Shown here in pieces: positions 2,197 to 62,194 of a stretch of 63,847 bases of DNA. Position 1 is the first letter of the stretch. Each line of letters starts with the position of its first letter. The notes below the pieces were generated by a model that was given only the letters and a program-made list of their open reading frames with translations, was not told the origin of the DNA and searched no databases. The position numbers and the translations under genes were made by a program. This stretch comes from a virus: IMG/VR virus record IMGVR_UViG_3300023241_000001, positions 1 through 63,847 of that record, one strand, 5' to 3'.

Positions 2197-5118
2197 ATGG
2201 CAATAATATACGACCAGAGTAGTAATGCTTATGATGACAGCAACCTAAGCTATGACGGAACGTTAGGAAGTTCTAGTTCATCTAGTTCTTCTAGTTCCTC
2301 AAGCAGTTCTAGTAGTTCATTAAGCTCAAGCAGTTCTAGTTCCTCAAGTAGCTCTTTAAGTTCTATCAGTTCAAGTTCATCAAGTTCCTCTAGCAGTTCA
2401 TTCAGCTCAAGCAGTTCTAGTTCATCAAGTAGCTCAAGCAGTTCATTAAGTTCAAGTAGCTCTAGTTCTTCTAGTTCCTCAAGCAGTTCATATAGCTCAA
2501 GTAGTTCCAGTTCATCAAGTAGCTCATTCAGCTCAAGTAGCTCTAGTTCTTCAAGTAGCTCAAGTAGTTCTTTCAGCTCAAGTAGTTCAAGCTCATCAAG
2601 TAGCTCAAGTAGTTCATTAAGTTCTAGTAGCTCTAGTTCTTCTAGTTCCTCAAGTAGCTCATTTAGCTCAAGTAGCTCAAGCAGTTCATCAAGTTCTTCT
2701 TTTAGCTCTAGCTCATCAAGTTCATCAAGTAGCTCAAGTAGTTCTTTCAGCTCAAGTAGCTCAAGTAGTTCTTCAAGTAGTTCCTTTAGTTCAAGTTCTT
2801 CTAGTTCTTCTAGTAGCTCTAGCAGTTCATTCAGCTCAAGTAGTTCAAGCTCATCAAGTAGCTCAAGCAGTTCATTAAGTTCAAGTAGCTCTAGTAGCTC
2901 ATCAAGCAGTTCATTCAGTTCAAGTAGCTCTAGCTCATCAAGCAGTTCTAGTAGCTCAAGCAGCTCAAGTAGTTCCTTTAGCTCAAGTAGCTCTAGCTCA
3001 TCAAGTAGTTCTAGTTCATCAAGCTCATCAAGCAGTTCATTCAGTTCAAGTTCTTCAAGTAGCTCATTCAGCTCAAGCAGTTCTTCCAGTTCATCAAGTA
3101 GTTCTTTCAGTTCTTCTAGTTCATCAAGTAGCTCAAGTAGTTCTTTAAGTTCTAGCAGTTCAAGCTCATCAAGTTCCTCAAGTAGTTCCTTTAGCTCTAG
3201 TAGCTCAAGCTCATCAAGCTCATCAAGTAGTTCTTTCAGCTCAAGCAGTTCTAGTTCATCTAGCAGTTCTAGTAGCTCAAGTAGTTCATATAGCTCAAGC
3301 TCATCAAGTAGCTCAAGCAGTTCTAGCAGTTCTAGCTCATCAAGCAGTTCTTTTAGTTCCTCAAGTAGCTCAAGCAGTTCATCAAGCAGTTCATTCAGTT
3401 CAAGTAGCTCAAGCAGTTCATCTAGCAGTTCTTTTAGTTCAAGTTCTTCTAGTTCCTCAAGTAGCTCAAGCAGTTCATCAAGCAGTTCAAGTAGTTCTTT
3501 CAGCTCAAGCAGTTCTAGTTCATCTAGCAGTTCTAGTAGCTCAAGTAGTTCATCTAGCAGTTCTAGTAGCTCAAGTAGTTCTAGTTCATCAAGTAGCTCA
3601 AGTAGCTCATATAGTTCTAGTAGTTCAAGTAGCTCAAGTAGCTCATTTAGTTCAAGTAGCTCAAGTAGTTCTAGTTCATCAAGTAGCTCATTTAGTTCAA
3701 GCAGTTCAAGCAGTTCTAGTTCTTCTAGTAGCTCATTCAGTTCAAGCAGTTCTAGTTCTTCTAGTAGCTCAAGTAGTTCTTTAAGTTCTAGCAGTTCAAG
3801 CTCATCGAGTAGTTCATTTAGCTCAAGTTCTTCCAGTTCATCAAGTAGTTCTAGTAGTTCAAATAGTTCTTTTAGTTCCTCAAGTAGCTCAAGTAGTTCC
3901 TTTAGCTCAAGTAGTTCTAGCTCATCAAGCAGTTCAAGCTCGTCTAGTTCATCAAGCAGTTCTTTCAGCTCAAGTAGTTCCAGTTCATCAAGTTCCTCTA
4001 GCAGTTCTTTCAGCTCTAGTAGCTCAAGCTCATCAAGTTCCTCTAGCAGTTCTTTCAGCTCAAGTAGTTCCAGTTCATCAAGTAGCTCTAGCAGTTCTTT
4101 CAGCTCAAGTAGTTCCAGTTCATCAAGTAGCTCAAGCAGTTCTTTTAGCTCAAGTAGTTCCAGTTCATCAAGTAGCTCAAGTAGTTCTTTCAGCTCGAGC
4201 AGTTCATCAAGTAGCTCAAGTAGTTCTTTCAGCTCAAGTAGCTCAAGTAGTTCATCAAGTAGTTCATTTAGTTCAAGTAGCTCAAGTAGTTCATCAAGTA
4301 GTTCATTTAGTTCAAGTAGCTCAAGTAGTAGCTCTAGTAGCTCAAGCTCATCAAGTTCCTCTAGCAGTTCTTTCAGCTCAAGTAGTTCCAGTTCATCAAG
4401 TAGCTCTAGCAGTTCTTTCAGTTCAAGTAGTTCCAGTTCATCAAGTAGCTCTAGCAGTTCATTCAGCTCAAGTAGTTCTAGTTCATCAAGTAGCTCAAGC
4501 AGTTCTTTCAGCTCTAGTTCATCAAGCTCATCAAGCTCATCAAGTAGTTCTTTCAGCTCAAGTTCTTCTTCTTCGAGTTCATCAAGTAGCTCAAGCTCAT
4601 CAAGCTCGTCTAGTAGTTCCTTTAGTTCAAGTTCATCAAGTAGCTCTAGTAGCTCAAGCTCATCAAGCTCATCAAGTAGTTCCAGTTCATCTAGTAGTTC
4701 TTTCAGTTCAAGTAGCTCAAGTAGTTCCAGTTCATCTAGCAGTTCATTCAGTTCAAGTAGCTCAAGCTCATCAAGTAGCTCTAGCTCATCTAGCAGTTCA
4801 AGCAGTTCAAGTAGTTCTAGTTCATCAAGCAGTTCATTCAGTTCAAGTAGCTCTAGCTCATCAAGTAGCTCTAGCTCATCTAGCAGTTCAAGCAGTTCAA
4901 GCTCATCAAGTAGTTCAAGTTCTTTTAGTTCTTCAAGTAGTTCAAGCAGTTCAAGTTCATTATCAAGCTCAAGTTCTTCTAGTTCATCAAGCTCGGCTTC
5001 ATCATTACCATATCAAGTTGATTTTGTTAATAAAACATATGATTATGAATTTAAAGATGATACAAGCAATTATAAATTTGATAATAAAACATATAATTAT
5101 AAATTTGATGAACAATAA
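2197..5118 (+). CDS. Giant polyserine repeat protein (973 aa)
   Basis: Residues 1-24 are non-repetitive (YDQSSNAYDDSNLSYDG), residues about 25-935 are nearly pure Ser, and the last 35-40 residues are again non-repetitive and Tyr/Phe/Lys/Asp-rich, with a doubled TYDYEFKDD / TYNYKFDEQ pattern. Within the Ser part a single Phe (about 40), Leu (several) or Tyr (3) interrupts the run, most often after 14 Ser (15-residue period) or 12 Ser (13-residue period). Codons mix AGT/AGC with TCA/TCT/TCC throughout, and the frame is open for 2.9 kb, which argues for selection on the protein. The tyrosine-rich ends resemble short tails of phage virion proteins. Likely an extended virion or surface filament, possibly O-glycosylated. 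No biochemical role is established. Confidence 0.9.
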   Translation: MAIIYDQSSNAYDDSNLSYDGTLGSSSSSSSSSSSSSSSSSLSSSSSSSSSSSLSSISSSSSSSSSSSFSSSSSSSSSSSSSSLSSSSSSSSSSSSSSYSSSSSSSSSSSFSSSSSSSSSSSSSSFSSSSSSSSSSSSSSLSSSSSSSSSSSSSSFSSSSSSSSSSSSFSSSSSSSSSSSSSSFSSSSSSSSSSSSFSSSSSSSSSSSSSSFSSSSSSSSSSSSSSLSSSSSSSSSSSSFSSSSSSSSSSSSSSSSSSSSFSSSSSSSSSSSSSSSSSSSSFSSSSSSSSFSSSSSSSSSSSSFSSSSSSSSSSSSLSSSSSSSSSSSSSSFSSSSSSSSSSSSSSFSSSSSSSSSSSSSSSSSYSSSSSSSSSSSSSSSSSSSSFSSSSSSSSSSSSSFSSSSSSSSSSSSFSSSSSSSSSSSSSSSSSSSSSFSSSSSSSSSSSSSSSSSSSSSSSSSSSSSSSSSSSSYSSSSSSSSSSSFSSSSSSSSSSSSSSFSSSSSSSSSSSSSSFSSSSSSSSSSSSSSLSSSSSSSSSSSFSSSSSSSSSSSSSSNSSFSSSSSSSSSFSSSSSSSSSSSSSSSSSSSSFSSSSSSSSSSSSSSFSSSSSSSSSSSSSSFSSSSSSSSSSSSSSFSSSSSSSSSSSSSSFSSSSSSSSSSSSSSFSSSSSSSSSSSSFSSSSSSSSSSSSFSSSSSSSSSSSSFSSSSSSSSSSSSSSSSSSSSSFSSSSSSSSSSSSSSFSSSSSSSSSSSSSSFSSSSSSSSSSSSSSFSSSSSSSSSSSSSSFSSSSSSSSSSSSSSSSSSSSSSFSSSSSSSSSSSSSSSSSSSSSSSSSSFSSSSSSSSSSSSSSFSSSSSSSSSSSSSSSSSSSSSSSSSSSSSFSSSSSSSSSSSSSSSSSSSSSSSSSSSSFSSSSSSSSSSSLSSSSSSSSSSSASSLPYQVDFVNKTYDYEFKDDTSNYKFDNKTYNYKFDEQ
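3960..4190 (+). repeat. 45-base tandem units inside the polyserine gene
   Basis: Near-identical 45-base (15-codon) units follow one another here, each including CTCAAGTAGTTCCAGTTCAT and ending with a TTC or TTT Phe codon. The rest of the gene has more diverged versions of the same unit. This indicates growth by unequal crossing over or slippage of whole 15-codon units. Confidence 0.8.
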
Positions 5119-13906: not shown

Positions 13907-14248
13907 ATGAAATTCACAAGATATAAATATGGAGTAGCAAATGAAAGAGGTACTGTTCTCTCTAAAACAGCAGATTATACAATATTAGAAAATGATATTT
14001 TAAGATCCGGTCAGTTTTTTAAAGTTGATGGTCATAAGTTAACATTGCCTGCCGCTAGTGGAAATTTAAAAGGTACAAGTGTATATGTTTTTGGAAGTAG
14101 CGGTTCATCTAAAGTAGCTGTTGTTGCTGGTTTTGGTGGTGGTGGTGCTAGTTATGATACTGTAACCGTAGGAGCATATAATACTATAGAGTTTTGGTGT
14201 GACGGCAGTTATTGGTACGCATTATCTAATGCGGTTGGTGCTAGCTAA
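13907..14248 (+). CDS. Capsid-associated decoration-like protein, short paralogue
   Basis: 113 residues preceded by AAGGAGG. It is a clear paralogue of the next gene: both start with TRYKY, share LTLPAAS and end in EFWCDGSYWYAL. The C-terminal pattern is widespread in phage fibre or head-decoration domains. This copy stops directly after the domain, without the Ser tail of its neighbour. Position after the major capsid protein suggests a decoration or head-fibre protein. Confidence 0.75.
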   Translation: MKFTRYKYGVANERGTVLSKTADYTILENDILRSGQFFKVDGHKLTLPAASGNLKGTSVYVFGSSGSSKVAVVAGFGGGGASYDTVTVGAYNTIEFWCDGSYWYALSNAVGAS

Positions 14249-14265: not shown

Positions 14266-14820
14266 ATGCCAAAACCTACCAGATATAAATATAGTGTCGC
14301 TAACCGTAGGGGTACAACCCTAAGTAAATCCGCAGATTACTCTCTGACAGAGAATGATGTTGAAAGAAGTGGATCTTTATTTGTTAAATTAACTTCAGGA
14401 AATACACTAACTTTACCTGCCGCTAGTGATAGTTTAAAAGGCGCTAGTGTTTATGTTAATACATCTGATCAAGGCATTGTATATGTTGCTGCCGGATTTG
14501 GTGGTGGGGGAGCTAGTTATGATACTGCTAATATAGGAAAGTATGAATCTGCTGAGTTTTGGTGTGACGGCAGTTATTGGTACGCATTAAATGTAACTGT
14601 AGCTGGAAATACTTCTAGTTCATCATCCAGTTCATCATCTTTTTCCAGTAGCTCATCAAGTTCATCAAGTAGCTCAAGTAGCTCATTAAGTTCATCAAGT
14701 AGTTCATTAAGCTCGAGTAGCTCAAGCTCAAGTAGCTCAAGTAGCTCAAGCTCAAGCTCAAGCTCATCAAACTCAAGTAGTTCTAGCTCATCTAGTTCGA
14801 GCTCAAGCGAATCTAGTTAA
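14266..14820 (+). CDS. Decoration-like protein with C-terminal polyserine tail
   Basis: 184 residues. Residues 1-115 match the preceding gene (TRYKYSVANRRGTTLSKSADY, EFWCDGSYWYAL). From about residue 117 to the end there are about 68 residues of Ser with isolated Phe, Leu, Asn and a terminal ESS. Codons mix AGY and TCN. If the folded part binds the capsid, the tail would project from the head surface. Confidence 0.8.
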   Translation: MPKPTRYKYSVANRRGTTLSKSADYSLTENDVERSGSLFVKLTSGNTLTLPAASDSLKGASVYVNTSDQGIVYVAAGFGGGGASYDTANIGKYESAEFWCDGSYWYALNVTVAGNTSSSSSSSSSFSSSSSSSSSSSSSSLSSSSSSLSSSSSSSSSSSSSSSSSSSSNSSSSSSSSSSSSESS

Positions 14821-14831
14821 AAGTTAAACCT

Positions 14832-14859
14832 ACCCTTGGCGGTAAACTCCGCCAAGGGT
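14832..14859 (+). terminator. Perfect 11-base-stem hairpin
   Basis: ACCCTTGGCGG pairs with CCGCCAAGGGT around a 6-base loop, between two Ser-tail genes. No clear T tract follows, so it may be a weak terminator or a transcript-stabilising 3' end rather than a full stop. Confidence 0.55.
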
Positions 14860-14877
14860 TACTAAAGGAGATAGATA

Positions 14878-15171
14878 ATGGCATATCCCGCTTATAAATG
14901 CCCTTTTAAAAATAATGCCGGTGCAGGAATTGTTTGTGAGAATATTGCATGTGGATTGTTCAACGTTGTTGAAAATGACTGCAATTTTATTATGAATGAA
15001 CGAAGAAAACATCAGCTAACTGGTAAAGTAGTTCCTAATACAAATACTTATTCTAGTTCGAGTTCTAGTTCTAGTTCGAGTTCATATAGCTCGAGTTCTT
15101 CTTCGTCGAGTTCTTCTTCGTCGAGTTCTTCTTCGTCGAGTTCTTCTTCGTCGAGTTCGAGTTCTTCTTAA
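14878..15171 (+). CDS. Small Cys-containing protein with polyserine tail
   Basis: 97 residues. Residues 1-58 contain four Cys (YKCPF, IVCENIACG, ENDC) and no recognised family. Residues 59-97 are almost pure Ser with one Tyr. It starts after AAAGGAG, ends in the Ser tail, and is followed by AGGGGG of the next gene. A small virion protein is the natural guess from its neighbours and tail. Confidence 0.75.
   Translation: MAYPAYKCPFKNNAGAGIVCENIACGLFNVVENDCNFIMNERRKHQLTGKVVPNTNTYSSSSSSSSSSSYSSSSSSSSSSSSSSSSSSSSSSSSSSS
15091..15150 (+). repeat. Four perfect 15-base tandem repeats coding Ser
   Basis: The 15-mer TCGAGTTCTTCTTCG occurs four times without a mismatch, each coding five Ser. Perfect identity implies recent expansion by slippage, unlike the diverged repeats of the large polyserine gene. 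Confidence 0.9.
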
Positions 15172-15180
15172 GGGGGTATT

Positions 15181-15903
15181 GTGTCTTATACTAGAGAAGA
15201 TTATTTAACACGATTAGAAACTGCACTACAGGATGATGCTGAAAAACTGCAACCTGATGATAAGTATCGTATTTTAACGCAATCTGTAGTAATCTTTTCT
15301 AAAGATAAACCAAACACTAAGATAAAAGAATCAACAGGAGATGGTTCTTCTTATGATTTTGCTCTTCCTAGCGATTGGGTAGAAGGTACTTCTTATATTA
15401 TTGGACAGATTGAATATCCAGCTGATGATTATCAAAATCCTAGTTATCTTGAACAGATAGATTGGAAGTTCTTTAAAAAGAACGTTGAGAGTGTGATGAC
15501 TACTTATATTCGCATTTTAAGTTTCATCCCTGCGAATGGTAAAATATTAAAATATGAATATGCGTTACCTCAAATATTAAATGAGGAAACTTGTACTATA
15601 AATGATAGTTATATAGAGGCAGTTACTAATCTAACTGCCGCTCTTTGTTTTTGGGCTCTCGCGGCTAAATTTGCACAAACTACTGATTCTACTATCGAAG
15701 CTGATGTTATTGATTATCAACGGAAATCTGATCTTTATGCATCCTTAGCAAAAGAGAAGATGTCAGTTTATAATTCATTAATGGGTCTAGGTATAGAATC
15801 TAAGAATTCAGGTGCGGCCTCTGCTGGGATTGCGGTTAAAGATCTTGACATGGAATACTCATGGAAAGAAGATATGTTAACACATCCTATTAGATGGCGA
15901 TAA
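15181..15903 (+). CDS. Head-tail connector (adaptor-like) protein
   Basis: 240 residues starting at GTG after AGGGGG. Mostly helical with a central beta part (YDFALPSDWVEGTSYIIGQIEYP, residues about 60-82), then helices ending TNLTAALCFWALAAKFAQT. Size, helix content and place between capsid and tail-completion genes fit the adaptor that docks on the portal. Family not proven. Confidence 0.65.
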   Translation: MSYTREDYLTRLETALQDDAEKLQPDDKYRILTQSVVIFSKDKPNTKIKESTGDGSSYDFALPSDWVEGTSYIIGQIEYPADDYQNPSYLEQIDWKFFKKNVESVMTTYIRILSFIPANGKILKYEYALPQILNEETCTINDSYIEAVTNLTAALCFWALAAKFAQTTDSTIEADVIDYQRKSDLYASLAKEKMSVYNSLMGLGIESKNSGAASAGIAVKDLDMEYSWKEDMLTHPIRWR

Positions 15904-15931
15904 TTCCCCAAGCAAAGAGATTTAGGAGAAG

Positions 15932-15977
15932 GCGGAGATAGATGAACATATGGTGATTTTTACATCTATCCTTCCGC
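15932..15977 (+). other. Bulged hairpin before a gene lacking a Shine-Dalgarno sequence
   Basis: GCGGA+GATAGATG pairs with CATCTATC+(CT bulge)+TCCGC, about 13 base pairs. The 15988 start follows within 11 bases with no purine-rich site. The loop side carries two very short frames (MNIW at 15942, and a 15-codon frame from 15950 that overlaps the start). This could be a terminator-like element or a translational control hairpin. Confidence 0.45.
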
Positions 15978-15987
15978 TTTATTATGC

Positions 15988-16434
15988 ATGTCATTAGCAT
16001 TAATTAGAACACAAATAAAAACTAAGCTTGAAGCAATATCAGGTGTAGAAAATGTTTATGATTATAAACGTTTCTGTAGCGACCTTACTACATATAATAC
16101 CTTGTTTGTTAAGGATTCTAAAGTAAACACTTGGGAAATAGAAAGGACTTCTTTTGAAAGGATTGGGCATGGGGGGTCAGGTGATGTTGAAGATGTAAAT
16201 AATACTTTTATAATTAGTGGTTTCTATTCTTTTTATGATGAATTAGCCACAGAAAAAACATTTCAAGACCTTATTGAAACTATTTGTGCTAGTTTTATCA
16301 GTGATCCAACATTAGGCGGAACAGCAAATATCGTGCATATTCCTATTACCGGAGAGTTTTCAATGGTAATGTTAGGTGCAGTTTTATGTCATAAATGCGA
16401 TATAACAATTAATATTGATGATAGAATTATTTAA
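15988..16434 (+). CDS. Tail completion / minor tail protein
   Basis: 148 residues. SLALIRTQIKTKLEAISGVENVYDY at the start and HKCDITINIDDRII at the end resemble tail-terminator (gpU-like) proteins that sit between neck and tail tube genes. There is no Shine-Dalgarno sequence before the ATG and no alternative in-frame start back to a stop at 15943, so translation may depend on the upstream hairpin or coupling. Confidence 0.6.
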   Translation: MSLALIRTQIKTKLEAISGVENVYDYKRFCSDLTTYNTLFVKDSKVNTWEIERTSFERIGHGGSGDVEDVNNTFIISGFYSFYDELATEKTFQDLIETICASFISDPTLGGTANIVHIPITGEFSMVMLGAVLCHKCDITINIDDRII

Positions 16435-16448
16435 AGGAGGGAAAGAAA

Positions 16449-17468
16449 ATGGCTAAAATATCAAGAGTTGCTCAATTAGCAGGAAAAGTAGAAACTATTA
16501 GTGGAACAGCAGAAACATTAGCAGCAGCACAAGCTACAATACTGTCATATGAGCCAGTGTTAGATGCTGATTTTGAACAGTATAAAAGAAATCCTGTTGT
16601 GAAGCATATGTCTAGGTTTGCTTCTGAGCCTGGTGCAAGGAAAATGTCGCTTGCTTTTAAAGCTGAGTTAATGGGGCCAATATCCGGATCAAAAGGAACA
16701 ACACTACCACTAACGCCGTTTCTTCGTTCTTGTGGATTGTCAGAAAGCCTTTCAGTTGGAACATCTAATATTTATGTTCCTGTATCAAGTAGTTTTGTTA
16801 CCTGTACAGTAGCTAAATACTTAGATGGAATAAGAAAAACAATGTCAGGTTGTGCCGGTAATGTTAAATTTCAGTTTAAAGTTGGTGAACCTGTTTTTTG
16901 TGAATTTGCAATGGAAGGTAAATATTACGAACATAGCGATACTGCACTGTTAACTCCTACATACCCGGAACAAGTTCCTTTAATTTTTATGGGTGCAACT
17001 GTTACTATTGACAGTGATAGTTTAGTAATGGATACTTTAGAAATTGATATGCAGAATGAAGTTGTTATATCTCCTAGACCTCAAGATTCATCTGGTATTG
17101 ATTATGCTAAAATAGTTGGTAGAAATCCACAAATGTCATTTGACCCTGAATTAGTTTCTATTGCTAGCCATGATTTTTATTCAAAGATACTTTCTCGTTC
17201 TACAATGGCTGTAGTGATTAATATGAATGATAGCAATGGAAATAATATTACTTTTTCATTGCCGGCAGTAAGGTACACAGGATTAAAAGAAGCTGATAGA
17301 AGTGGTATTGCGGCGTTAAGTGCTACTTGCGAAATTTGTAAGAATTCAGACGCGGGTAATGATGAGATAACAATTACTATGGGAACATCATCTAGTTCAT
17401 CTAGCTCAAGTAGTTCAAATAGTTCAAGCAGTTCTAGTTCGTCAAGTTCTAGTAGTGAGAGTGCTTAA
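16449..17468 (+). CDS. Major tail tube protein with polyserine tail
   Basis: 339 residues preceded by AAAGGAGG. The body (MAKISRVAQLAGKVETISGTAE..., FLRSCGLSES, then repeated beta strands) matches the style of phage tail tube proteins, and the gene lies two genes upstream of the tail chaperone pair and four upstream of the tape measure. The last 30 or so residues are Ser with one Asn and a terminal ESA. In a polymerised tube every subunit would display a Ser tail, so hundreds of tails would decorate the tail. Confidence 0.8.
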   Translation: MAKISRVAQLAGKVETISGTAETLAAAQATILSYEPVLDADFEQYKRNPVVKHMSRFASEPGARKMSLAFKAELMGPISGSKGTTLPLTPFLRSCGLSESLSVGTSNIYVPVSSSFVTCTVAKYLDGIRKTMSGCAGNVKFQFKVGEPVFCEFAMEGKYYEHSDTALLTPTYPEQVPLIFMGATVTIDSDSLVMDTLEIDMQNEVVISPRPQDSSGIDYAKIVGRNPQMSFDPELVSIASHDFYSKILSRSTMAVVINMNDSNGNNITFSLPAVRYTGLKEADRSGIAALSATCEICKNSDAGNDEITITMGTSSSSSSSSSSNSSSSSSSSSSSSESA

Positions 17469-17478
17469 AAGGATATGA

Positions 17479-17955
17479 ATGCCTAGTAGTTTTAAATGCA
17501 GAATAGATATTGATGTTTCTAATCCTGATTATAGTGATGCATCTATTCCATTAGGTCAAGTTGCTAGAAAAATTGCTGAAAGTTCAAGAAGGAATATACG
17601 CACACAAACTAGCATTAAAGGACACGCATTTAAAGGTTTATCAGTAAAAACAATTAAAGATAAAAGAAGAGAAGGAAGTGACTATCCTACAAGAGCATTG
17701 TATAGAAAAGGAATTATGTATCGTGCAATTCATGTTTATCAAAGAAGTAAAAATGCATTTGAAGTTGGTATAATTCCTAGAGGTAAACCAAAAAGAGATT
17801 TAGTAGGGTATATTCATCAGGAAATATACCCTATAATAAGAGCGTTTTTAGGATTTGATGCAAAATCTAGGCAATGGTCTAAAGAAAGATTTAGACGATG
17901 GATGAAAGAGAGAAAAGAAAAAGCTAAAAGAACTAAATCAACCTATAGTTATTAA
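17479..17955 (+). CDS. Virion morphogenesis / tail completion protein
   Basis: 158 residues, very basic. The pattern FKGLSVKTIKDKRREGSDYPTRAL, then MYRAIHVY...GIIPRG and a Lys/Arg-rich end resembles the phage virion morphogenesis (gpG/tail completion) family in which KG..LY.TG.L..SI is typical. It sits between tail tube and tail chaperone genes. Confidence 0.6.
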   Translation: MPSSFKCRIDIDVSNPDYSDASIPLGQVARKIAESSRRNIRTQTSIKGHAFKGLSVKTIKDKRREGSDYPTRALYRKGIMYRAIHVYQRSKNAFEVGIIPRGKPKRDLVGYIHQEIYPIIRAFLGFDAKSRQWSKERFRRWMKERKEKAKRTKSTYSY

Positions 17956-17966
17956 AGGAGGGTGTC

Positions 17967-18377
17967 GTGGTAGATCCAATCAGTGTCGGAATGACAAAAG
18001 AATACACATTAGAAAAGGATAAAGTAAATCCTACAATTTGGTTAATAGGTCCATTAGACTCTATTATGAAATCAAAGTTTATTTCAAGCTTTGGTAAAAT
18101 TGAGATAAAAGATGATAAACCAGTTTACGTTCAAGGAGATATTGATTATACACAAAATAATTTTACTATCTTAAAATATGGATTAAAAGGATTTAAAAAC
18201 TTCAAGATCAATGGAAAAGAATTAGAGTTTAAAACAAAAAAAGAAAAAGTTTTCAATATTGAAATTGAAGTTGTTGCTGATGAAACTATGAGAGCAATTC
18301 CTTTATTTGTAATAAATGAATTAGCCGCAATAATTTGGGGTGAAAACGAGGTTGGTGAAGATTTAGAAAAAAACTAA
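17967..18377 (+). CDS. Tail assembly chaperone, G-like (pre-frameshift product)
   Basis: 136 residues from a GTG start after AAAGGAGGG. Position between tail tube and tape measure, and the -1 frameshift signal at its last codons, match the lambda G/GT system, in which G and the G-T fusion coat the tape measure during tail assembly. The final codons are GAA AAA AAC TAA. The sequence itself is not diagnostic. Confidence 0.75.
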   Translation: MVDPISVGMTKEYTLEKDKVNPTIWLIGPLDSIMKSKFISSFGKIEIKDDKPVYVQGDIDYTQNNFTILKYGLKGFKNFKINGKELEFKTKKEKVFNIEIEVVADETMRAIPLFVINELAAIIWGENEVGEDLEKN

Positions 18378-18416
18378 TATTGGCAGTTGAGGTGTCAAGC
18401 TTAGGCCTTAATTGCC
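18368..18416 (+). promoter_or_regulatory. Programmed -1 frameshift site with downstream hairpin
   Basis: The canonical slippery heptamer A AAA AAC lies at 18368-18374 in the correct phase, immediately before the TAA of the G-like frame. A -1 slip enters the following open frame through CTA ATA TTG. Seven bases downstream, GGCAGTT (18382-18388) can pair with AATTGCC (18410-18416, one G-U pair), giving a possible stimulatory stem. Confidence 0.85.
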
Positions 18417-18685
18417 ACGATTGTAATGAACATCAAAAGAAATTTCGTGGGTGTAATGGCAAACCAATTCAGCCATATTTAATAGATGGTAAGCCAGCGG
18501 ATAGGTGCATAGCAAAAATGCTACCACCAGAGGTAAAAACGTATATAAAATATTATGAATATTATAAAAAAGGATTGTTACCTTTCCCCGGTAGTGTTGC
18601 ACAGCAACCAGCAAAACTATTAGATATATTCGACATTTTAGAATCAGCTGAGATAAAAGTAATGAACAGTAAACATAAGGTGTAA
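18374..18685 (+). CDS. T-like extension of tail chaperone (made by -1 frameshift)
   Basis: The frame has no ATG or Shine-Dalgarno sequence near its beginning (TTG at 18380 is the only start-like codon). It is expected to be read from the G-like gene by the -1 slip, giving a fusion of about 239 residues (136+2+101). The T part carries Cys residues in NCHDCNEHQKKFRGC and DRCIAKM, possibly a metal site. It ends one base before the tape measure start. Confidence 0.8.
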   Translation, partial: LILAVEVSSLGLNCHDCNEHQKKFRGCNGKPIQPYLIDGKPADRCIAKMLPPEVKTYIKYYEYYKKGLLPFPGSVAQQPAKLLDIFDILESAEIKVMNSKHKV

Positions 18686-18686
18686 T

Positions 18687-20630
18687 ATGGCAGTAGGCGA
18701 TCAAAATTTTACAGTTAGAGCAACATTTGTTGATAAAGCTTCTGGTAAAGTCATAAAAGCTAATGCAGCAATGATTAATTCCATGAAGAAGGTAGGAGTC
18801 CAATTTCAAAAAACTGGGGCTGAAACTGCTATGGCTTTAGATAAAATGGCGCAAGGACATGAAAAAGCAGGAAGGTTTTCAAGATTCCACAACGCTCAAA
18901 TAGGTAAGCTAATAGGATCTATTGGTTCTATGCGTAACATAATACTTGTTTGGATGTTTGCTTTAGGACCATTAATCAATCTTTTTAAATCAGCTACCAA
19001 AGCTATGATGATACAAGAAGATGCTGTAAAGCGTCTTAGCTTTGCTATGGAAATCCAAGGTACTGCTTCTAAATTTATGCAAAATAATCTTAAAGAATTG
19101 TCTGCTGCTTTTCAAGAAACAACTAGATACGGTGATGAAGCAATATTGGAAGTAATGGAAAAATTAATTACTGTAGGCGGAGTTGTACCTTCTAAATTAA
19201 AAAGAGCAACCCAAGCTGTTGTAGATTTTGCAGCAGGGTCCGGAAGAAGCCTATCAGAAGCGGGTGAGCTAATAGCAAAAAGTGCTGTTGGATATACAAT
19301 GCAAATATCTAGGTTGTTCGGAGTTACTATACCTAAAAGCATGTCTGTAGCCAAACAATTTGAAATGGTTCTTGGATTGATAGAAGGAAAGATGGCTGGA
19401 AGAGCTCAAAGAGATATAAAAAGTTATGCAGGTAGCGTAGCGCAGATGGCTAACGCTTGGAGTGATGCAAAAGAAGCTTTAGGTTTTTTTCTTAATAAAA
19501 CATTTCATTTGCAGGCTGGTATGAAAATAATGAAAGATATGTTTGATACGTGGTCTGGTAAAAATGCTTCTACTGCAATGATGGTATTAGATAAAGAAAT
19601 AAGCAAAGTTGATAAATCGTTACAAATTTTAATTAAAACTAGCAAGAATATAAGTGGGAAAAATTTCTTATTCATGAAACCTGATAATCTTACAAATAAG
19701 ATTGCAGAGAAACAACAAGAAAGACTTGCTTTGATAACAAGAAAAACACAGTTAGAAATTCAATCATTTATGGATTCAATTAGACTTAAAGAACAAGGTA
19801 AAATAATAGAAGCAGAACAAGCTAAAATGGCAACACAAAAAGAATGGGCAGATACATATTCAATATTTCAAAGAACTCGAGCTGATTATCAAATAGAACA
19901 ATTAAATCAAGAGTATGCTTTATACCTAAAAGTATTTGAAGATAATGCAGCTAGAAAATTAGAGATAGAGGAATGGTATCAAGCTAAAGTAACAAAATTA
20001 CGAAAGCTTGCGTTAACAGATGCCAAAGATCAATACGATGCTATGGAAGTAATGACGAAATCATTTGCTGTTAATATGCGTAATTCTATGTCTGATGGTT
20101 TTTTTAAGGTTATCAAAGGAGATTTTGAATCATTAAAAGATGTATTAGTGTCATTTGGTGATGCAATGTTAAAAACTATTACAGATATTATTGCTAATTT
20201 AATAATAATGTCAATATGGCAAAAAGCAGCTGGGCTATTAGGATATTCAGGAGGGGTTGTTGGTGCCGTTATTAATGCAGGAACTGCACGCGCTCATTCT
20301 GGTGGGTATATTATGGATTCAAAAAATAGTTTTGGGTATCGAAAGAAGTTTCATTCTGGAGGAGAAGTTCCCGCAACATTACTTGAGGGTGAGGGTGTAT
20401 TAAACCGAAGAGCAATGGGCAATTTAGGTGTAGATAATTTGAATAAGCTTAATCGCGGAGAAGGTTCCGGCGGCGGCGGCGGAGTAGTAAATAATTATTA
20501 TATTCAAACTATTGATGAACGATCATTCAGAGAAAGGTTACAGCAGAACGGAGATATTTATGCAAATGCTTCCGGAAGAAGCATAATGGATAATCAATCA
20601 TTAAGAGGAATTACACAAAAATATGGCTAA
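18687..20630 (+). CDS. Tail tape measure protein
   Basis: 647 residues: helical, with a hydrophobic segment near residues 85-105 (NIILVWMFALGPLINLF) and a second at about 495-540. The C-terminal Gly-rich part includes HSGGEVPATLLEGEGVLNRRAM, a pattern typical of tape measure ends. By the usual rule of about 0.15 nm per residue the tail would be near 97 nm. Follows the G/T frameshift pair, as in lambda-like phages, and overlaps the next gene by 8 bases. Confidence 0.9.
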   Translation: MAVGDQNFTVRATFVDKASGKVIKANAAMINSMKKVGVQFQKTGAETAMALDKMAQGHEKAGRFSRFHNAQIGKLIGSIGSMRNIILVWMFALGPLINLFKSATKAMMIQEDAVKRLSFAMEIQGTASKFMQNNLKELSAAFQETTRYGDEAILEVMEKLITVGGVVPSKLKRATQAVVDFAAGSGRSLSEAGELIAKSAVGYTMQISRLFGVTIPKSMSVAKQFEMVLGLIEGKMAGRAQRDIKSYAGSVAQMANAWSDAKEALGFFLNKTFHLQAGMKIMKDMFDTWSGKNASTAMMVLDKEISKVDKSLQILIKTSKNISGKNFLFMKPDNLTNKIAEKQQERLALITRKTQLEIQSFMDSIRLKEQGKIIEAEQAKMATQKEWADTYSIFQRTRADYQIEQLNQEYALYLKVFEDNAARKLEIEEWYQAKVTKLRKLALTDAKDQYDAMEVMTKSFAVNMRNSMSDGFFKVIKGDFESLKDVLVSFGDAMLKTITDIIANLIIMSIWQKAAGLLGYSGGVVGAVINAGTARAHSGGYIMDSKNSFGYRKKFHSGGEVPATLLEGEGVLNRRAMGNLGVDNLNKLNRGEGSGGGGGVVNNYYIQTIDERSFRERLQQNGDIYANASGRSIMDNQSLRGITQKYG

Positions 20631-21564
20631 TACTAATATACTAACATTAACACCTGAATTTGGTTTAAAAGAAACTATAAGTTTTAATACCAATATAAGT
20701 GATTCTGAAAGTGGCATAGAACAACGCGATGCTTTATGGGATCATGGATTAAGAGATTATAACCTTACTTGTAAATTCCTAACCCAAACAGCAATGAATG
20801 TAATTTGGGATTTTTATATTGCAAGGTTAGGCGCTTATGATTATTTTTTATTAAAAATTCTTACCGAGTATCAAATAACAGATGAAGCATTAGGGTCAGC
20901 TGATGGAGTAACAGCCGCTTTTTTACTTCATAATTTTCCTGTTGATGTTTCTGCAAATAGTTCTTGTACTGTTGGTGGCGTTGCTAATACAAACTACACT
21001 TTAAGCAATAATTTTACCACTGAAAAATCATATATAACATTCAATCCTATTCCGGCAAGTGGCGCGATATTACTTTCTTATGAATATTATTTTAAAGTTA
21101 GGTTTACTGATGATAAATTAACTAGAGAATTAGCCGCGTATCAGTTATTGCATTCCGGTATTAATTTAAAAGAGATTAGGTGGAGTTCTTATAATCCTCC
21201 TGAAGGAAACTTTAGTTCTTCTAGTTCTTCTAGTTCAATGAGTTCCAGCTCATCGTCTAGTTCAAGTAGATCTTCTTCAAGCTCATCTAGCTCAAGTTCT
21301 AGCTCATCTAGCTCAAGTTCTAGCTCATCTAGCTCATCGAGTTCATCTTCTCTTTCATCAAGTTCTTCGAGCTCATCAAGTTCAAGTAATTCTAGTTCAT
21401 CATCAAGCAGTAGTGATTCTTCTAGTTCATCATCAAGTAGTAGCTCATTTAGTTCAAGCAGTTCTTTCAGCTCAAGTAGTTCTAGTTCATCAAGTAGCTC
21501 ATTTAGTTCAAGCAGTTCTTTCAGCTCAAGTAGCTTTAGTTCATCAAGTAGCTCTAGCGGTTAA
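20623..21564 (+). CDS. Distal tail protein (DUF2460-like) with polyserine tail
   Basis: 313 residues. Residues 1-200 match the DUF2460 pattern of GTA gp12-type distal tail proteins (LTPEFGLKETISFNTNIS, SGIEQRDALWDHGLRDYNL, RFTDDKLTRELAAYQL). From about residue 203 to the end there are about 110 residues of Ser with scattered Met, Arg, Leu, Asn, Asp and, near the end, Phe. Family members normally stop near residue 200-210, so the tail is an addition. Confidence 0.82.
   Translation: MANTNILTLTPEFGLKETISFNTNISDSESGIEQRDALWDHGLRDYNLTCKFLTQTAMNVIWDFYIARLGAYDYFLLKILTEYQITDEALGSADGVTAAFLLHNFPVDVSANSSCTVGGVANTNYTLSNNFTTEKSYITFNPIPASGAILLSYEYYFKVRFTDDKLTRELAAYQLLHSGINLKEIRWSSYNPPEGNFSSSSSSSSMSSSSSSSSSRSSSSSSSSSSSSSSSSSSSSSSSSSSSLSSSSSSSSSSSNSSSSSSSSDSSSSSSSSSSFSSSSSFSSSSSSSSSSSFSSSSSFSSSSFSSSSSSSG
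21280..21336 (+). repeat. 21-base tandem repeats in the Ser tail
   Basis: The 21-base unit beginning AGCTCATCTAGCTCAAG occurs twice perfectly (21280-21300, 21301-21321) and a third copy begins at 21322. Each unit codes seven Ser. Consistent with recent slippage. Confidence 0.8.
21427..21534 (+). repeat. 54-base tandem repeat (18 codons) in the Ser tail
   Basis: The block containing CTCATTTAGTTCAAGCAG and TTCTTTCAGCTCAAGTAG appears twice 54 bases apart, adding two Phe per unit. The Phe-interrupted style matches the giant polyserine protein, suggesting sequence exchange between the loci. Confidence 0.7.
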
Positions 21565-52303: not shown

Positions 52304-52393
52304 ATGAATAAGATAAAAACAAATGAAAGCAAAAGTTCAGCCCTGAATAATTCAGGGTTTTTTTATTTTGTAAGCAAAAAGGAGGAAGTATGA
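52304..52393 (+). CDS. Leader peptide candidate spanning a terminator, 29 aa
   Basis: ATG at 52304 opens a frame (MNKIKTNESKSSALNNSGFF...) that reads through the terminator stem and ends in TGA overlapping the groES ATG. The upstream ribosome site is weak (AAAAGAAAA). If translated, a ribosome on this frame would cover the terminator stem, suggesting translation-controlled attenuation and coupling to groES. Confidence 0.35.
   Translation: MNKIKTNESKSSALNNSGFFYFVSKKEEV
52341..52364 (+). terminator. Intrinsic terminator before groES
   Basis: CCCTGAA-TAA-TTCAGGG followed by seven T. A textbook intrinsic terminator placed between promoter 2 and the first gene of the rightward arm, so transcription of the arm must pass it. 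It resembles promoter-leader-terminator arrangements controlled by antitermination. Confidence 0.82.
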
Positions 52394-52692
52394 ATATAAT
52401 TGAACCGTTAAATAAGCGGATAATAGTTGAGCCAGATGCAAAGGAAAGTGTATCGAAAGGTGGGATTTTCATACCGCAGACTGCCAGCCAGAAAGCACCA
52501 ACGAAAGGTAGGGTCGTTTCAATAGCGAGTGACTGCGCTATAAAGATTCGGCTAAGCAAAGGGGATTTGGTTATTTTCCCGAAGTTCGCCGGCACAGAGA
52601 TTATCGTGCCACCATTAGATATAGAAGGGAAAGATAAAGTATTACAGATTATAAAGGAAGAGGATATACTTGCCGTTATCAAACCAAGTTAA
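52390..52692 (+). CDS. groES: GroES-like co-chaperonin
   Basis: 100 residues. MNIIEPLNKRIIVEPDAKES, the mobile loop SKGGIFIPQTASQKAPTKGR (hydrophobic triplet IFI) and GDLVIFPKFAGTEI are diagnostic of Cpn10/GroES. It caps host GroEL to fold phage proteins, as T4 gp31 does for its capsid protein. No GroEL is present. AAAGGAGG precedes the start. It is the first gene of the rightward arm. Confidence 0.93.
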   Translation: MNIIEPLNKRIIVEPDAKESVSKGGIFIPQTASQKAPTKGRVVSIASDCAIKIRLSKGDLVIFPKFAGTEIIVPPLDIEGKDKVLQIIKEEDILAVIKPS

Positions 52693-53355: not shown

Positions 53356-53937
53356 ATGATTAAATATAATGTTGATTACTATTACAATCTTTTGAAGATT
53401 CATACGTGTACAGCAAAGGAAATTAATGACTTGCGGTGGAATTTTGTCGCAAAATATACAATGATTGATAAAATCGCTAGACAATATGCAACAGTTCTTG
53501 ATTATGGGTGCGGTCCGGGCTGGTTTGCTGCATTTAAGCCTGACTACATTAGGCAGAATAACATTGATACTTTCGATATTATGCCTGTTCCGCAGACAGG
53601 GATAAGAAGGATTCAGTATAGCGTTGTAACGCTTTGGGATGTGCTGGAACATATTGCGGATTTTACTGATATTGAGAATGTGATTAATCGGACAAATTTT
53701 GTTGCGATGACTATTCCGATTAAACCTGATAGCATAAGGTGGAATTCGTGGAAACACTTTAAGCCGGGCGAGCATCTCCATTATTATACAGTTGATTTAC
53801 TAAAAGCATTGTTTAGATTGTATGGTTTTTCATTAAAAATTGATGAAATGATTGAATGTCCTCCAAGAAGCGATGTGCATTCATTGATTTTCGAGAAATC
53901 TGATTGGGTTACTACAACGACGAGGAATAATGGATAA
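53356..53937 (+). CDS. Class I SAM methyltransferase
   Basis: 193 residues. Motif I VLDYGCGPGWF (about 47-57), acidic FDIMPVP, TLWDVLEHI (the methyltransferase-type WDVLEH motif) and HYYTVDLLKALFRLYGF follow the small-molecule/sugar methyltransferase pattern (Methyltransf_23 type). It opens the sugar-modification cluster. Overlaps the next gene by 8 bases. Confidence 0.82.
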   Translation: MIKYNVDYYYNLLKIHTCTAKEINDLRWNFVAKYTMIDKIARQYATVLDYGCGPGWFAAFKPDYIRQNNIDTFDIMPVPQTGIRRIQYSVVTLWDVLEHIADFTDIENVINRTNFVAMTIPIKPDSIRWNSWKHFKPGEHLHYYTVDLLKALFRLYGFSLKIDEMIECPPRSDVHSLIFEKSDWVTTTTRNNG

Positions 53938-55705
53938 AGAGAAAGTAGTCTTAGTAAACGATTTATCCCCGGGCGATATTTTAATAATGTCAGTGGCGAT
54001 CCGGTCATTGTATAAAGCTTACCCTAATAAGTATATGATTGACGTTCGTTCGCCATGCAATGAGATATTCAATAATAATCCTTATATTCAAAAAATACCG
54101 ATAAGTAATAATGCTAAAGTCAATGAGGCTATCGAGAAATTAAAGAAAAATGACAACCTTCCTCCGATATTGGTGGAAGATACTAAATATATTATATCCC
54201 ACTACCCTCTTATCCATATTTCTGGCATGTCAGGGCTTCCTTTTGCTGATGGGCATCGAATGTTTTTGGCGCAGAAGCTAGGGATTGAAATACCGCGAAC
54301 AGGTATGAAGCCAGATATTTTCTTTTCAAACGAGGAATTGGCACTACCTAGGCAGATAAAAGGCAAATATTGGCTGATAAATGCTGGAATCAAGAATGAC
54401 TACACCTTAAAATACTATCCTTACTATCAAGAAGTGGTAAATCTGCTAAAAGATAAGATTCAAGTCGTTCAAGTTGGACATACAGCTCACAACCACCCAC
54501 TATTGGACAATGTATTGGATTTAAGGGGGAAAACTAACCTAAGGCAACTGTTTCTACTGTCTAAGTACGCAGAAGGGGCTATATGCCCAGTTTCGTTGCA
54601 AATGGTTATAATGGCATCGTTAAGTAAGCCTTGCGTAGTGGTTGCCGGCGCCAGAGAGGGGGTTAGGTGGCAATTAAATCCAGATCATCGCTTCCTATAT
54701 ACTAATGGCGCAATTAAATGTGCAAAGTATGACGGCTGTTGGCGGTCAAAGATAGAAGAATGCACGTTCAAATCTTCTGAAGGTAATCCAATGTGCATGG
54801 AATTAATTCGCCCGGAGGACATCGCGCGAGCGGTAGAGTTGTATTACTTAGGTGGAGTGTTGAAGTATGAGAAAGAAAACCCGGTTATTCTTAACCAAAA
54901 AGAAGGAGTAAATAAAATGGATAAAGTGACTCTTAACGCTATTGTTCCTGAGAATACTGGTGATAACACTGCAGTTCCAAATATATTAAACGCTGATAAT
55001 AGCAATTTAAACAAAGATATTATAGATGTTAATAAAATAACCGTTTCTGAATCTTTTCCTGTCGGTATTAATTCTCCACAAGCAACATCTTCGATATTTA
55101 ATATATTAAGGATATTAAAGAAGTTAAATGATAGCGATACATTTCTCGAGGCGTATCACTGGCATTTGAATAAGCGTAAAGATACATTTATGGATACGTA
55201 TCATTTTATGCAGTGGGTTGGTGCTAATGTAAGACCTAAACGAATATTAGAGATAGGAACACGCACTGGTATATCAATTTGCCAATTATTATCAGCCTAT
55301 ACTAATTATGATAGTTTAGAAGAAATAATACTTTGTGATTTGTTTAATGATGGATTAGCAACGCCTCAAGGCGTTTTAAATGCTTTGAACTATTTGAATA
55401 TTCCAACTGATAAAGTTAAATTCATTGTTGGCAGTTCATTAGATGAAATACCTAAATTTATTGGAAAGCAAACTTTCGATTATATTCTTGTTGATGGAAA
55501 TCATGATAAAGATTATGCAAGAAAAGATTTAATTAATGCAGTTCAATTAATAGAAAAAGGCGGTTACATTGTCTTTGATGATATAACACCTGACGGCTGT
55601 TCACTCCAAGATGTATGGGATGAGTTTAAAACAAATAACAATGCCTCTTTTAATTTCATGGAGAATCATGACGGTAAAGGATTAGGCGTAGCTAAAAAAA
55701 TATGA
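53930..55705 (+). CDS. GT9-like glycosyltransferase fused to SAM methyltransferase
   Basis: 591 residues. Residues 1-320 resemble heptosyltransferase/GT family 9 (VLVNDLSPGDILIMSVAIRS, YWLINAGIKNDYTLKYYPYY, EGAICPVSLQMVIMASLSKP). Residues about 400-591 are a Methyltransf_24-type enzyme (RILEIGTRTGISICQLLSAY, FDYILVDGNHDKDYARKDL, GGYIVFDDI). The link at 320-330 reads QKEGVNKMDKV, the translation of a Shine-Dalgarno sequence (AGAAGGAG) and ATG at 54917, so the methyltransferase may also be made alone. Role: sugar transfer plus methylation on a surface glycan. Confidence 0.82.
   Translation: MDKEKVVLVNDLSPGDILIMSVAIRSLYKAYPNKYMIDVRSPCNEIFNNNPYIQKIPISNNAKVNEAIEKLKKNDNLPPILVEDTKYIISHYPLIHISGMSGLPFADGHRMFLAQKLGIEIPRTGMKPDIFFSNEELALPRQIKGKYWLINAGIKNDYTLKYYPYYQEVVNLLKDKIQVVQVGHTAHNHPLLDNVLDLRGKTNLRQLFLLSKYAEGAICPVSLQMVIMASLSKPCVVVAGAREGVRWQLNPDHRFLYTNGAIKCAKYDGCWRSKIEECTFKSSEGNPMCMELIRPEDIARAVELYYLGGVLKYEKENPVILNQKEGVNKMDKVTLNAIVPENTGDNTAVPNILNADNSNLNKDIIDVNKITVSESFPVGINSPQATSSIFNILRILKKLNDSDTFLEAYHWHLNKRKDTFMDTYHFMQWVGANVRPKRILEIGTRTGISICQLLSAYTNYDSLEEIILCDLFNDGLATPQGVLNALNYLNIPTDKVKFIVGSSLDEIPKFIGKQTFDYILVDGNHDKDYARKDLINAVQLIEKGGYIVFDDITPDGCSLQDVWDEFKTNNNASFNFMENHDGKGLGVAKKI
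54901..54919 (+). promoter_or_regulatory. Internal ribosome-binding site within GT9-methyltransferase fusion
   Basis: AGAAGGAG followed eight bases later by an in-frame ATG (54917-54919), codon 330. It marks the boundary between the two domains and suggests a recent gene fusion by loss of a stop codon. Confidence 0.65.
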
Positions 55706-56739
55706 AAATATTAATTACTGGCGGAGCAGGTCTTGTTGGAAGTCATTGTGCGGAACATTTTGCTAATAAAGGAGATTCTGTTGTTATCCTTGATAATTTA
55801 ATGCGCTCTAAGTTATTTGGATATGATAAAGAGTCAGTTGAGTTTAATTGGAACTTTTTAGGTTCGTTTGATAATATTGAACGTATAAAAGGCGATGTTA
55901 GAAATGTTGAAGATGTAAACAACTCTATGAGTAAAGGTGTTGATGCAGTTATACATACCGCTGGCCAGCCGGGAGTTCCTAGTTCTACAAGAATGCCGAT
56001 AGAAGATTTTCAGATAAACGCATTCGGCACTCTTAACGTTCTTGAGTGTTTGAGAAAAATAAATCCAAAAGCTACATTTTGTTATTGTTCTACCAATAAA
56101 GTTTATGGCGAGAATGTAGACACGATACCATTAGAAGAAGGAAGGACACGATATAATTATTTAGGTACTAAAGGAGTTAAAGAAACTCTGCCTGTTGATT
56201 TAACAGGACATACTCCGTATGGTGTCTCTAAATTAGTCGGAGATTTATATGCTCAGGAATATGCACATATTTATGGGATGCGAACTGGTGTATTTAGAAT
56301 GTCTTGTATTTATGGGATTAGACAGTTTGGCTTTGAGGATCAAGGTTGGGTTGCTTGGTTTATAATTGCTAATTTATTAAAGAAAGAAATAACTATTTTT
56401 GGCGATGGTAAGCAAGTTAGAGATCTTCTTTATGTTACTGATTTAGTAGATGCTTTTGATAAATTTATATATAGCGATGTTAAGTCAGATGTTTTCAACA
56501 TAGGTGGAGGTTCTGAGAATACGGAGTCTTTAAAGGAATTCATAACACACTTAGAATCTCTGACGAATAGATCTACACAATTGAAATATGCTGATTGGCG
56601 GCCGTCTGATCAAAAGGTATATATTACAGATATATCTAAGGTTAAAAAAATTCTTAATTGGGAGCCTAAGATTCATACACTTACAGGTATAAAAAAAGTT
56701 ATAAATTGGATTGATAATAATAAGGAAATATTTATTTAA
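55702..56739 (+). CDS. NAD-dependent sugar epimerase (CDP-paratose 2-epimerase-like)
   Basis: 345 residues of the short-chain dehydrogenase extended family. Rossmann motif TGGAGLVGSHCAEHF at 6-20, catalytic YGVSK near residue 173, and GVFRMSCIYGIRQFGFEDQG, WVAWF, a stretch characteristic of RfbE-type CDP-sugar 2-epimerases. It makes an activated sugar for the glycosyltransferases around it. Overlaps the preceding stop by 4 bases. Confidence 0.85.
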   Translation: MKILITGGAGLVGSHCAEHFANKGDSVVILDNLMRSKLFGYDKESVEFNWNFLGSFDNIERIKGDVRNVEDVNNSMSKGVDAVIHTAGQPGVPSSTRMPIEDFQINAFGTLNVLECLRKINPKATFCYCSTNKVYGENVDTIPLEEGRTRYNYLGTKGVKETLPVDLTGHTPYGVSKLVGDLYAQEYAHIYGMRTGVFRMSCIYGIRQFGFEDQGWVAWFIIANLLKKEITIFGDGKQVRDLLYVTDLVDAFDKFIYSDVKSDVFNIGGGSENTESLKEFITHLESLTNRSTQLKYADWRPSDQKVYITDISKVKKILNWEPKIHTLTGIKKVINWIDNNKEIFI

Positions 56740-56740
56740 A

Positions 56741-57391: not shown

Positions 57392-57396
57392 TATTA

Positions 57397-57840: not shown

Positions 57841-57976
57841 TGGTTGCGCTGGGTTAGGTTTAAATAAAAAATGCACAGTAATACCAGACGAGATATGGAT
57901 ATCAGGAGATTTAGATCCAAATAATAATTACAACGCTGTTGAATATACCGGGGGGATAAAATGGAAATTAAAATAA
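57800..57976 (+). CDS. Small lipoprotein hidden in an overlap, 58 aa
   Basis: ATG at 57800 after AAGGAGAAGATAA. MRIIIMAIVLIMVNGCAGLG is a lipoprotein signal with Cys16 in a VNGC lipobox; the rest (CTVIPDEIWISGDLDPNNNY) is polar. It overlaps the cytidylyltransferase by 41 bases and the next gene by 16. Rz1-like overlapped lipoproteins are known in phages, but this one is in a sugar cluster. It could hold a complex at the membrane. Confidence 0.65.
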   Translation: MRIIIMAIVLIMVNGCAGLGLNKKCTVIPDEIWISGDLDPNNNYNAVEYTGGIKWKLK

Positions 57977-60020: not shown

Positions 60021-60021
60021 T

Positions 60022-60627: not shown

Positions 60628-60640
60628 AAGGAGATAACAA

Positions 60641-61678: not shown

Positions 61679-61680
61679 TA

Positions 61681-62154: not shown

Positions 62155-62160
62155 AGTCCT

Positions 62161-62189: not shown

Positions 62190-62194
62190 GTAAT

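Follow-up and report, generated by a model that had tools for sequence, protein, structure and literature searches.

Why do several different virion-type proteins of one phage end in long runs of serine? The question is raised by the IMG/VR virus record IMGVR_UViG_3300023241_000001, analysed here over its whole length of 63,847 nucleotides (the window). Five of its proteins contain long serine tracts: four, encoded between 14266 and 21564, carry them as C-terminal tails, and one, encoded nearby, is a giant and nearly pure polyserine protein. The original prediction, made from the sequence of the window, regarded the tails as acceptors for sugars made by the phage itself. Across phage lineages, polyserine proteins are linked in the genome with a block of GT8-like, GT9-like and methyltransferase genes. 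Judged from this gene association, the tails probably serve as a scaffold, rich in hydroxyl groups, on which a pathway encoded by the phage carries out O-glycosylation.

Association of polyserine with glycosyltransferase genes

Two scans of IMG/VR with GT8-like alignments yielded 32 loci; outside the clade of the window (described below) the identity to its GT8-like protein was 42-57%. For counting, 19 loci were retained after removal of 11 loci of the window's own species, L183 (a copy of L182) and L233 (which overlaps L230, 100% identical over 6 kb). Of these 19 dereplicated loci, 18 have a polyserine run of at least 30 residues in the flanks fetched around the GT8-like gene (up to 10 kb), and in the remaining one the contig ends inside the GT8 gene. 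Such a run was found in none of 26 controls (15 outgroup tube loci, 3 epimerase loci and 8 named phages); at a limit of 15 residues one control was positive, a named phage with a 15-residue run. Fisher tests gave P values of 2e-10 (at least 15 residues) and 1e-11 (at least 30), both of which overstate the evidence because the loci share ancestry. The controls were unmatched to the GT8 loci in length or gene content. The epimerase controls are phage loci with the window's epimerase and without its GT8, two of them rich in other sugar genes by eye and one (L225) with LicD-type genes. The named phages were picked from the hits of homology searches, two being covered in their first 50 kb only, and JP1 among them has an annotated glycosyltransferase. 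Co-occurrence of serine tails with GT9, GT8 and LicD genes had been put forward as a check on the original prediction, and the outcome for the GT8-like gene was positive, including in phages of other architectures.

Homologues of the four core genes of the window (W53930, W56711, W60641 and W62195) form a block, in varying order, in L189, L190, L191, L195, L196, L229, L230/L233, L231, L232, L234 and L235, and two further gene layouts with the module were met in G075 and G077. L228, a 7.6-kb contig, has homologues of W60641 and W62195 only. All non-clade module loci contain polyserine open reading frames (ORFs) on the same strand, except L232, the contig that ends inside the GT8 gene. Measured between ORF ends, the next polyserine ORF follows the GT8 stop codon at 1 bp in L233, 9 bp in L229 and 72 bp in L190; in L191 the two overlap. 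Capsid proteins of PHROG 334 are encoded in L229, L195, L196, L231 and L234 and on the contig of L235; in the first five of these a polyserine-tailed protein directly follows the capsid gene. For W60641, W53930 and W62195, tblastn found no match at E 1e-3 in 50,697 named phage records.

The clade tube profile matched only G034 among 18 GT8-bearing records, some of the other 17 being clade fragments that end before the tube gene. The tube protein of L228, which is 28.8% identical to the tube of Pseudomonas phage AAT-1, has a polyserine run of 32 residues at its C-terminal end. The tubes of AAT-1 and MACPNOA1, two of the 154 hits of the L228 tube, end without a tail, and a parallel gain of the tube tail in L228 is therefore probable. 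A profile comparison of the L228 and window tubes gave no alignment (hhalign probability 0.5%); since both fall in PHROG 290, they may be very distant relatives. On the broadest interpretation, to which we give about even chances, the GT9/methyltransferase - methyltransferase - GT8 - GT9 block and the polyserine acceptor tracts would constitute a self-contained, horizontally moving virion-glycosylation module, grafted onto surface proteins of the recipient (tube, head fibre, post-capsid protein, distal tail, fibre) and giving unrelated uncultured phages a mucin-like sugar coat.

Serine tails in the window and its clade

The tails of the window, counted from the first SSSS up to the stop codon, are all encoded on the plus strand. 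They comprise 68 residues, 63 of them Ser, in a decoration-like protein (14266-14820; tail at nt 14614-14817), 39 residues with 38 Ser in a small Cys protein (14878-15171; nt 15052-15168), 26 residues with 23 Ser in the tail tube protein (16449-17468; nt 17388-17465) and 116 residues with 105 Ser in the DUF2460 distal tail protein (20623-21564; nt 21214-21561), the last varying in length by a 54-bp unit. All four tails had been predicted, with lengths of about 30 and about 110 residues for the tube and distal tail proteins. The giant protein (2197-5118, plus strand), likewise predicted, has 973 residues, with 855 Ser within the last 949. Chance occurrence is excluded by comparison with the 133 window ORFs of at least 60 residues: the longest pure serine runs are 36, 27, 27, 20 and 12 in the five proteins and 4 in the next best ORF. 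In each of the five tracts TCN and AGY codons are mixed, so the tracts are not simple triplet runs, and plain triplet expansion is ruled out as their origin. No tRNA gene was found in the window, and a phage-encoded serine tRNA to serve the tails was rejected. According to an excerpt of a survey of 102 phage proteomes (PMC6821194), the longest low-complexity region has 115 residues, and Ala, Gly and Pro are most enriched in such regions; the 949-residue tract is far beyond this range. Among the matches listed from a partial literature collection, none dealt with phage virion proteins that end in polyserine.

The tails mark one phage clade. In a scan with the tube alignment, relatives extended down to 59% identity, followed by a gap to 38% and below. 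The tube tree was built from 27 clade loci and the window, with 11 outgroup loci; loci of the same species, the near copies L027, L028, L029 and L031 and, from the outgroup, L089 (open at the contig end) and the near copies L091, L096 and L098 were left out. The tube tail is present in 28/28 clade rows versus 0/11 outgroup rows, which corresponds to a single change on the tree, and the branch separating tailed from untailed rows has an SH-aLRT of 100, with a warning of long outgroup branches. Outgroup tubes stop 1-14 residues past the aligned part without a serine run (L089 is cut by the contig end). Of the clade contigs fetched, which also include G017, G006, G012, G013, G016 and G019, ten were covered by gene lists (G005, G015, G003, G034, G064, G027, G032, G030, G023 and G066). 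In the clade records listed, the tube, decoration-like and DUF2460 proteins and, where found, the Cys protein all have polyserine, except the DUF2460 protein of L083, which runs into a contig end; the capsid and hub homologues have none. The runs span from 10 serines (DUF2460 protein of L081) to more than 100. No Cys homologue was recognisable in G034 and G030. Polyserine was also found on a J-like tail-tip protein in G015, G030, G032, G034 and G066, but not in the window, and polyserine proteins occupy the place of the giant protein in G005, G064, G066, G027, G034 and L188.

The tail of the DUF2460 protein is conserved as serine, not as DNA. Between the window and G003, its 112 aligned codons share 95.5% residue identity at 42.9% codon identity, with the interruptions at the same places, compared with 83.8% and 55.8% for the body of the protein. 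Although 64 of the 112 codons differ, only 5 residues do; the other 59 differences preserve the residue (binomial P 6e-30, with the chance assumed to be 0.25). Among 101 Ser-Ser pairs, 56 have different codons, including 15 switches between TCN and AGY. Repeat shuffling could add codon differences, but the conserved interruptions argue against much of it in this tail. Tandem DNA periods of 9, 45, 54 and 90 bp were found. In a record of the same species (2/22 overlapping loci) the DUF2460 tail is 18 residues shorter, which equals one 54-bp unit; tail length therefore changes fast while serine is kept.

The identities of the tailed proteins are established to different degrees. The product of 20623-21564 matches Pfam DUF2460 with E 4.9e-21 (75.6 bits versus a cut-off of 30.4) and TIGR02217, 'phage distal tail protein', with E 4.7e-8, under the cut-off of that model. 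The tube protein belongs to PHROG 290, a tail family (E 2.8e-14), and has relatives in 16 named phage records at 23-31% identity, 2 of which are annotated 'tail tube protein'. The gene 14266-14820 lies after the capsid gene, and a weak resemblance of its model (pLDDT 75) suggests a decoration or head-fibre-like protein: the best BFVD match is uncharacterised (E 8.7e-6), followed by a tail fibre (E 4.9e-5) and a head fibre protein (E 3.1e-4), and in the PDB a phage capsid spike ranks second with a weak E of 0.014. Its tandem paralogue (13907-14248, plus strand), 63% identical and without a tail, had gone unmentioned in the original prediction and serves as an internal control; both paralogues are tailed in G030 and G034. 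The small Cys protein, a candidate virion protein, gave no informative family match in Pfam or PHROG.

A truncated homologue of the product of 15181-15903 with a short polyserine tail is encoded at 2611-2958 of L151 (G027), and the tail is also present in L032, so this is a further protein that gained a tail. Within the giant protein Phe, Leu or Tyr recurs every ~13-15 residues (DNA period 45 bp), like evenly spaced stickers. Over all loci, 57/90 collapsed tails end in A, G or T, and position -3 is often Glu or Thr; the tails encoded at 6877-7563 of L033 have recurrent Cys-Arg pairs. One relative occurs as a separate 67-kb contig in a bacterial assembly (L160, 'uncultured bacterium isolate DRR093005_bin.42'). 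In this assembly a serine-type pattern of 14 codons matches 10 times, each time on the phage contig, and polyserine carried by the host itself was discarded.

The sugar cluster of the window

The cluster (53356-63037) lies on the same strand (plus) as the virion genes and contains methyltransferase, sugar epimerase, nucleotidyltransferase, LicD, GT9-like and GT8-like genes. Its first gene encodes a Methyltransf_23 methyltransferase (53356-53937) with homologues in G005, G034, L195 and L232. The core consists of a GT9-like N-terminal part fused to Methyltransf_24 (53930-55705; methyltransferase by Pfam, heptosyltransferase models weak at E 0.02-0.03), a Methyltransf_24 methyltransferase (56711-57391; Pfam), the GT8-like protein (60641-61678) and a GT9-like protein (62195-63037). 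An NAD-dependent sugar epimerase/dehydratase (55702-56739; Epimerase, E 4e-47) and a LicD-family protein (58362-59003; Pfam) are not core. For the nucleotidyltransferase (57397-57840) the best model is heptose-1-phosphate adenylyltransferase-like, below cut-off, and heptose is no more than a lead to the identity of the sugar. The protein encoded at 59000-59875 is unassigned and has homologues in several module loci.

The presence of phage-encoded glycosyltransferases in the window is indicated by remote matches along several lines. The GT8-like protein has remote profile matches and an LDAD motif (L116 D117 A118 D119) that is invariant in 10/10 aligned members; we take this DxD motif to be the GT8 metal motif. 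The Glyco_transf_8 profile matches 5 of 10 members (best E 6.2e-5), the window protein not being among them. Its structure model ranks GlyE (E 3.9e-3) and glycogenin first, which is weak support because the model is poor (pLDDT 49). The GT9-like protein (62195-63037) weakly matches the GT9 structure 3tov with E 0.005-0.01, and Pfam GT9 found no match in 10 GT9-like members.

The window is flanked by an exact terminal repeat of 127 bp (positions 1-127 and 63721-63847), a repeat length also found in G034 and the 67-kb contig of L160, so that all three look like circular assemblies; the 127 bp may be the k-mer overlap of the assembly. The window is taken to be complete and circular, with ~63.72 kb, and in this circle the sugar cluster (52-63 kb) runs into the fibre and polyserine genes at the window start. 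Ten clade contigs were seen to reach this region (the window, G005, G034, G064, G027, G015, G066, L188, L192 and L186), each with a cluster of sugar and methyltransferase genes; G027 and L192 show the last cluster genes only, L186 was assigned to the clade by visual inspection of its fibre genes, and the contigs of G003, G023, G030 and G032 stop short of the cluster. Related phages with tails and no glycan cluster, which would have contradicted the original prediction, were not found among them. That prediction had also named LicD among the glycan genes whose co-occurrence with the tails should be checked. As a core enzyme it was rejected, since a homologue is present in only 2 of 21 records searched, both of the window's own species. 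Remoter relatives of LicD were found in L189, L190 and L231, and also in L225, which is without polyserine.

By eye, a minus-strand ORF (61720-62226) between the GT8-like and GT9-like genes resembles an HNH-type homing endonuclease, and L188 has a similar minus-strand ORF in the same position. A small ORF (52390-52692) that, also by eye, resembles a GroES co-chaperonin lies at the start of the cluster, and similar ORFs are found there in G005, G034 and G066.

Possible functions of the tracts and known systems

If the tails are glycosylated, the GT8-like and GT9-like transferases would add sugars to the serines of the head-fibre-like protein, tail tube, distal tail protein and giant fibre-associated protein late in infection, and the methyltransferases would cap the added sugars. 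The product would be a mucin-like, sugar-coated virion, and the polyserine proteins and the transferase block would make up one functional module spread between phage lineages. Within this scheme we infer the late timing, the use of serine as acceptor, the sequence in which the enzymes act, the nature of the sugar and the role of the coat (shielding, adsorption or solubility). The weak match to the GlyE fold, together with the C-terminal glycans reported for mycobacteriophages, makes glycosylation of the tails plausible.

A number of observations weigh against glycosylation. The GT8 and GT9 assignments are remote (Pfam support in 5 of 10 members for GT8, E of about 0.01 for GT9). The clade members G015 and G066, of one sub-branch, have tails without the GT8/GT9 core; their cluster holds an alternative set in which a DegT aminotransferase (assigned by Pfam in G066) and methyltransferases are joined by a weak GT1 domain and by two proteins of unknown kind that are related to each other. 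Orthology of one protein of this set with the GT8 family was not supported (hhalign probability 0.2%). A terminator-like stem-loop (63062-63092, plus strand; pattern only) stands between the sugar cluster and the fibre/polyserine genes, and co-transcription with the virion genes is therefore not claimed. A scan of IMG/VR with a polyserine DNA pattern gave 45 stretches; 26 of these records were searched with a single GT8 protein, and after removal of the clade members L121, L125 and L143 a match was present in 0/23 non-clade records (no clade gene on the fetched stretch), many of which are fragments. Polyserine therefore has other uses too. Beyond the DUF2460 protein, residue and codon identities between window and G003 tails are 86.8/20.6% (decoration-like), 89.5/36.8% (tube) and 85.0/5.0% (Cys), with uncertain codon pairing because the tail lengths differ. 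The polyserine linker of the decoration-like protein and the 9-serine runs in G034, described below, are explicable by a plain spacer, and the cluster could instead act on the surface or the DNA of the host, or be a host-range cassette that moves together with fibre genes. In L103, L115, L117 and L133, records of other phages in which the GT8 protein has no match, a protein of 1,200 residues has a serine-rich stretch of 30-40 residues at its end, with GYGY after it.

In principle, polyserine could act as an unmodified, flexible and hydrophilic spacer or brush, the bare tails of the window being remnants left after loss of terminal domains; we regard this as rather unlikely. In G003, G005, L030, L023, L073 and L074 the decoration-like protein runs on past the polyserine into another domain, which is F5_F8_type_C_2 in G003 (E 5.8e-7, above cut-off) and, just below cut-off, in L030 (E 5.3e-6), so that polyserine also connects virion anchors with domains that are likely to bind sugars. 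The proteins of L023, L073 and L074 end in the domain after the polyserine, with no further tail. G034 has four tandem DUF2460 copies (L145 9032-17006) of 623-705 residues, possibly a display array, with C-terminal extensions that are preceded by 74 and 68 serines in two copies and by only 9 in the other two; two copies have galactose-binding-like matches below cut-off. A linker use agrees equally well with a spacer and with a glycosylated linker. Against a spacer, a terminal tract follows the domain of the decoration-like protein as well in G003 (21 Ser) and L030 (34 Ser). Tracts between two folded domains occur in G003 and L030 and not in the window, where the tails are terminal; in the clade records listed, no domain follows the bare tails of the tube protein or, if a homologue was recognised, of the Cys protein. 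A spacer does not predict the GT8/GT9 link (18/19 versus 0/26), nor the block beside polyserine in other phage types.

Still less probable is that the glycosyltransferase block and the polyserine fibre genes adjoin only as an exchanged receptor or host-range cassette, with sugars going to the host envelope (for instance in superinfection exclusion) and the serines staying bare. The nearest polyserine gene is indeed mostly downstream of the glycosyltransferase genes, abutting to ~3 kb away, often large and fibre-like by position, and surface glycans would be a fitting product of the LicD, epimerase and heptose-type genes. However, polyserine is also present on core virion proteins away from such a cassette: on the tube, decoration-like and DUF2460 proteins, 14-21 kb into the window, on the product of the gene after the capsid gene in L229, L195, L196, L231 and L234, and on the tube of L228. 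Finally, that the tails are functionless by-products of DNA repeat expansion, as the tandem periods and the loss of one 54-bp unit might suggest, is very improbable in view of the codon differences that keep the residue (59/64, TCN/AGY switches included), the same proteins being tailed clade-wide while the listed capsid and hub homologues are not, and the probable parallel gain in L228.

Overall, the acceptor role of the tails is partly supported: the co-occurrence of GT8 with polyserine and the lack of a tail-only contig among those of the clade speak for it, whereas LicD is not part of the core and the use of polyserine as a linker had not been considered. If the tails are acceptors, a homopolymer that can be fused to different proteins would form a modular system across several phage architectures, with transferases that have no match among the 50,697 named phage records. 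Such a system would open the function of sugar coats in environmental phages to direct study, and would be a candidate genetic tag with which selected proteins could be glycosylated in bacteria.

To our knowledge, protein glycosylation of phage particles is known from few systems. Glycans have been reported on the C-termini of mycobacteriophage capsid and tail tube proteins (Freeman et al. 2023, as cited in an excerpt of PMC12619734), and on the capsids of Che8 and Rita (as cited in part of PMC11256854). The window resembles these glycosylated virions in having phage-coded glycosyltransferases, and the sites modified there are the C-termini of capsid and tail tube. It differs in that its core transferases are without named-phage match, and its putative acceptors are polyserine homopolymers shared by different proteins. 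The serine-rich repeat adhesins of the PsrP/GspB type also combine a serine-rich tract with a neighbouring GT8-like enzyme, and GlyE, the weak fold neighbour of the window protein, acts in O-glycosylation of PsrP according to the available text of PMC12656782. The putative target here is the virion, not a secreted adhesin, and an initiating enzyme of the GtfA/GtfB type was not among the Pfam matches of ten cluster proteins, three of which are matchless. The autotransporter heptosyltransferases TibC/AAH transfer heptose from ADP-heptose onto serine (PMC4358343, in excerpt); the window likewise has GT9-like and heptose-nucleotidyltransferase-like genes, but among the matches to the profile of its GT9-like protein, a plain GT9 structure appeared no better than at E<=0.1. 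In carbohydrate-degrading bacteria, polyserine linkers part the modules of more than one quarter of the carbohydrate depolymerases of S. degradans (PMC2386152, in excerpt), a use that also favours a spacer and is matched by the long serine tracts between domains in relatives of the window; unlike these linkers, the tracts of the window are terminal, belong to virion-type proteins and extend to 949 residues.

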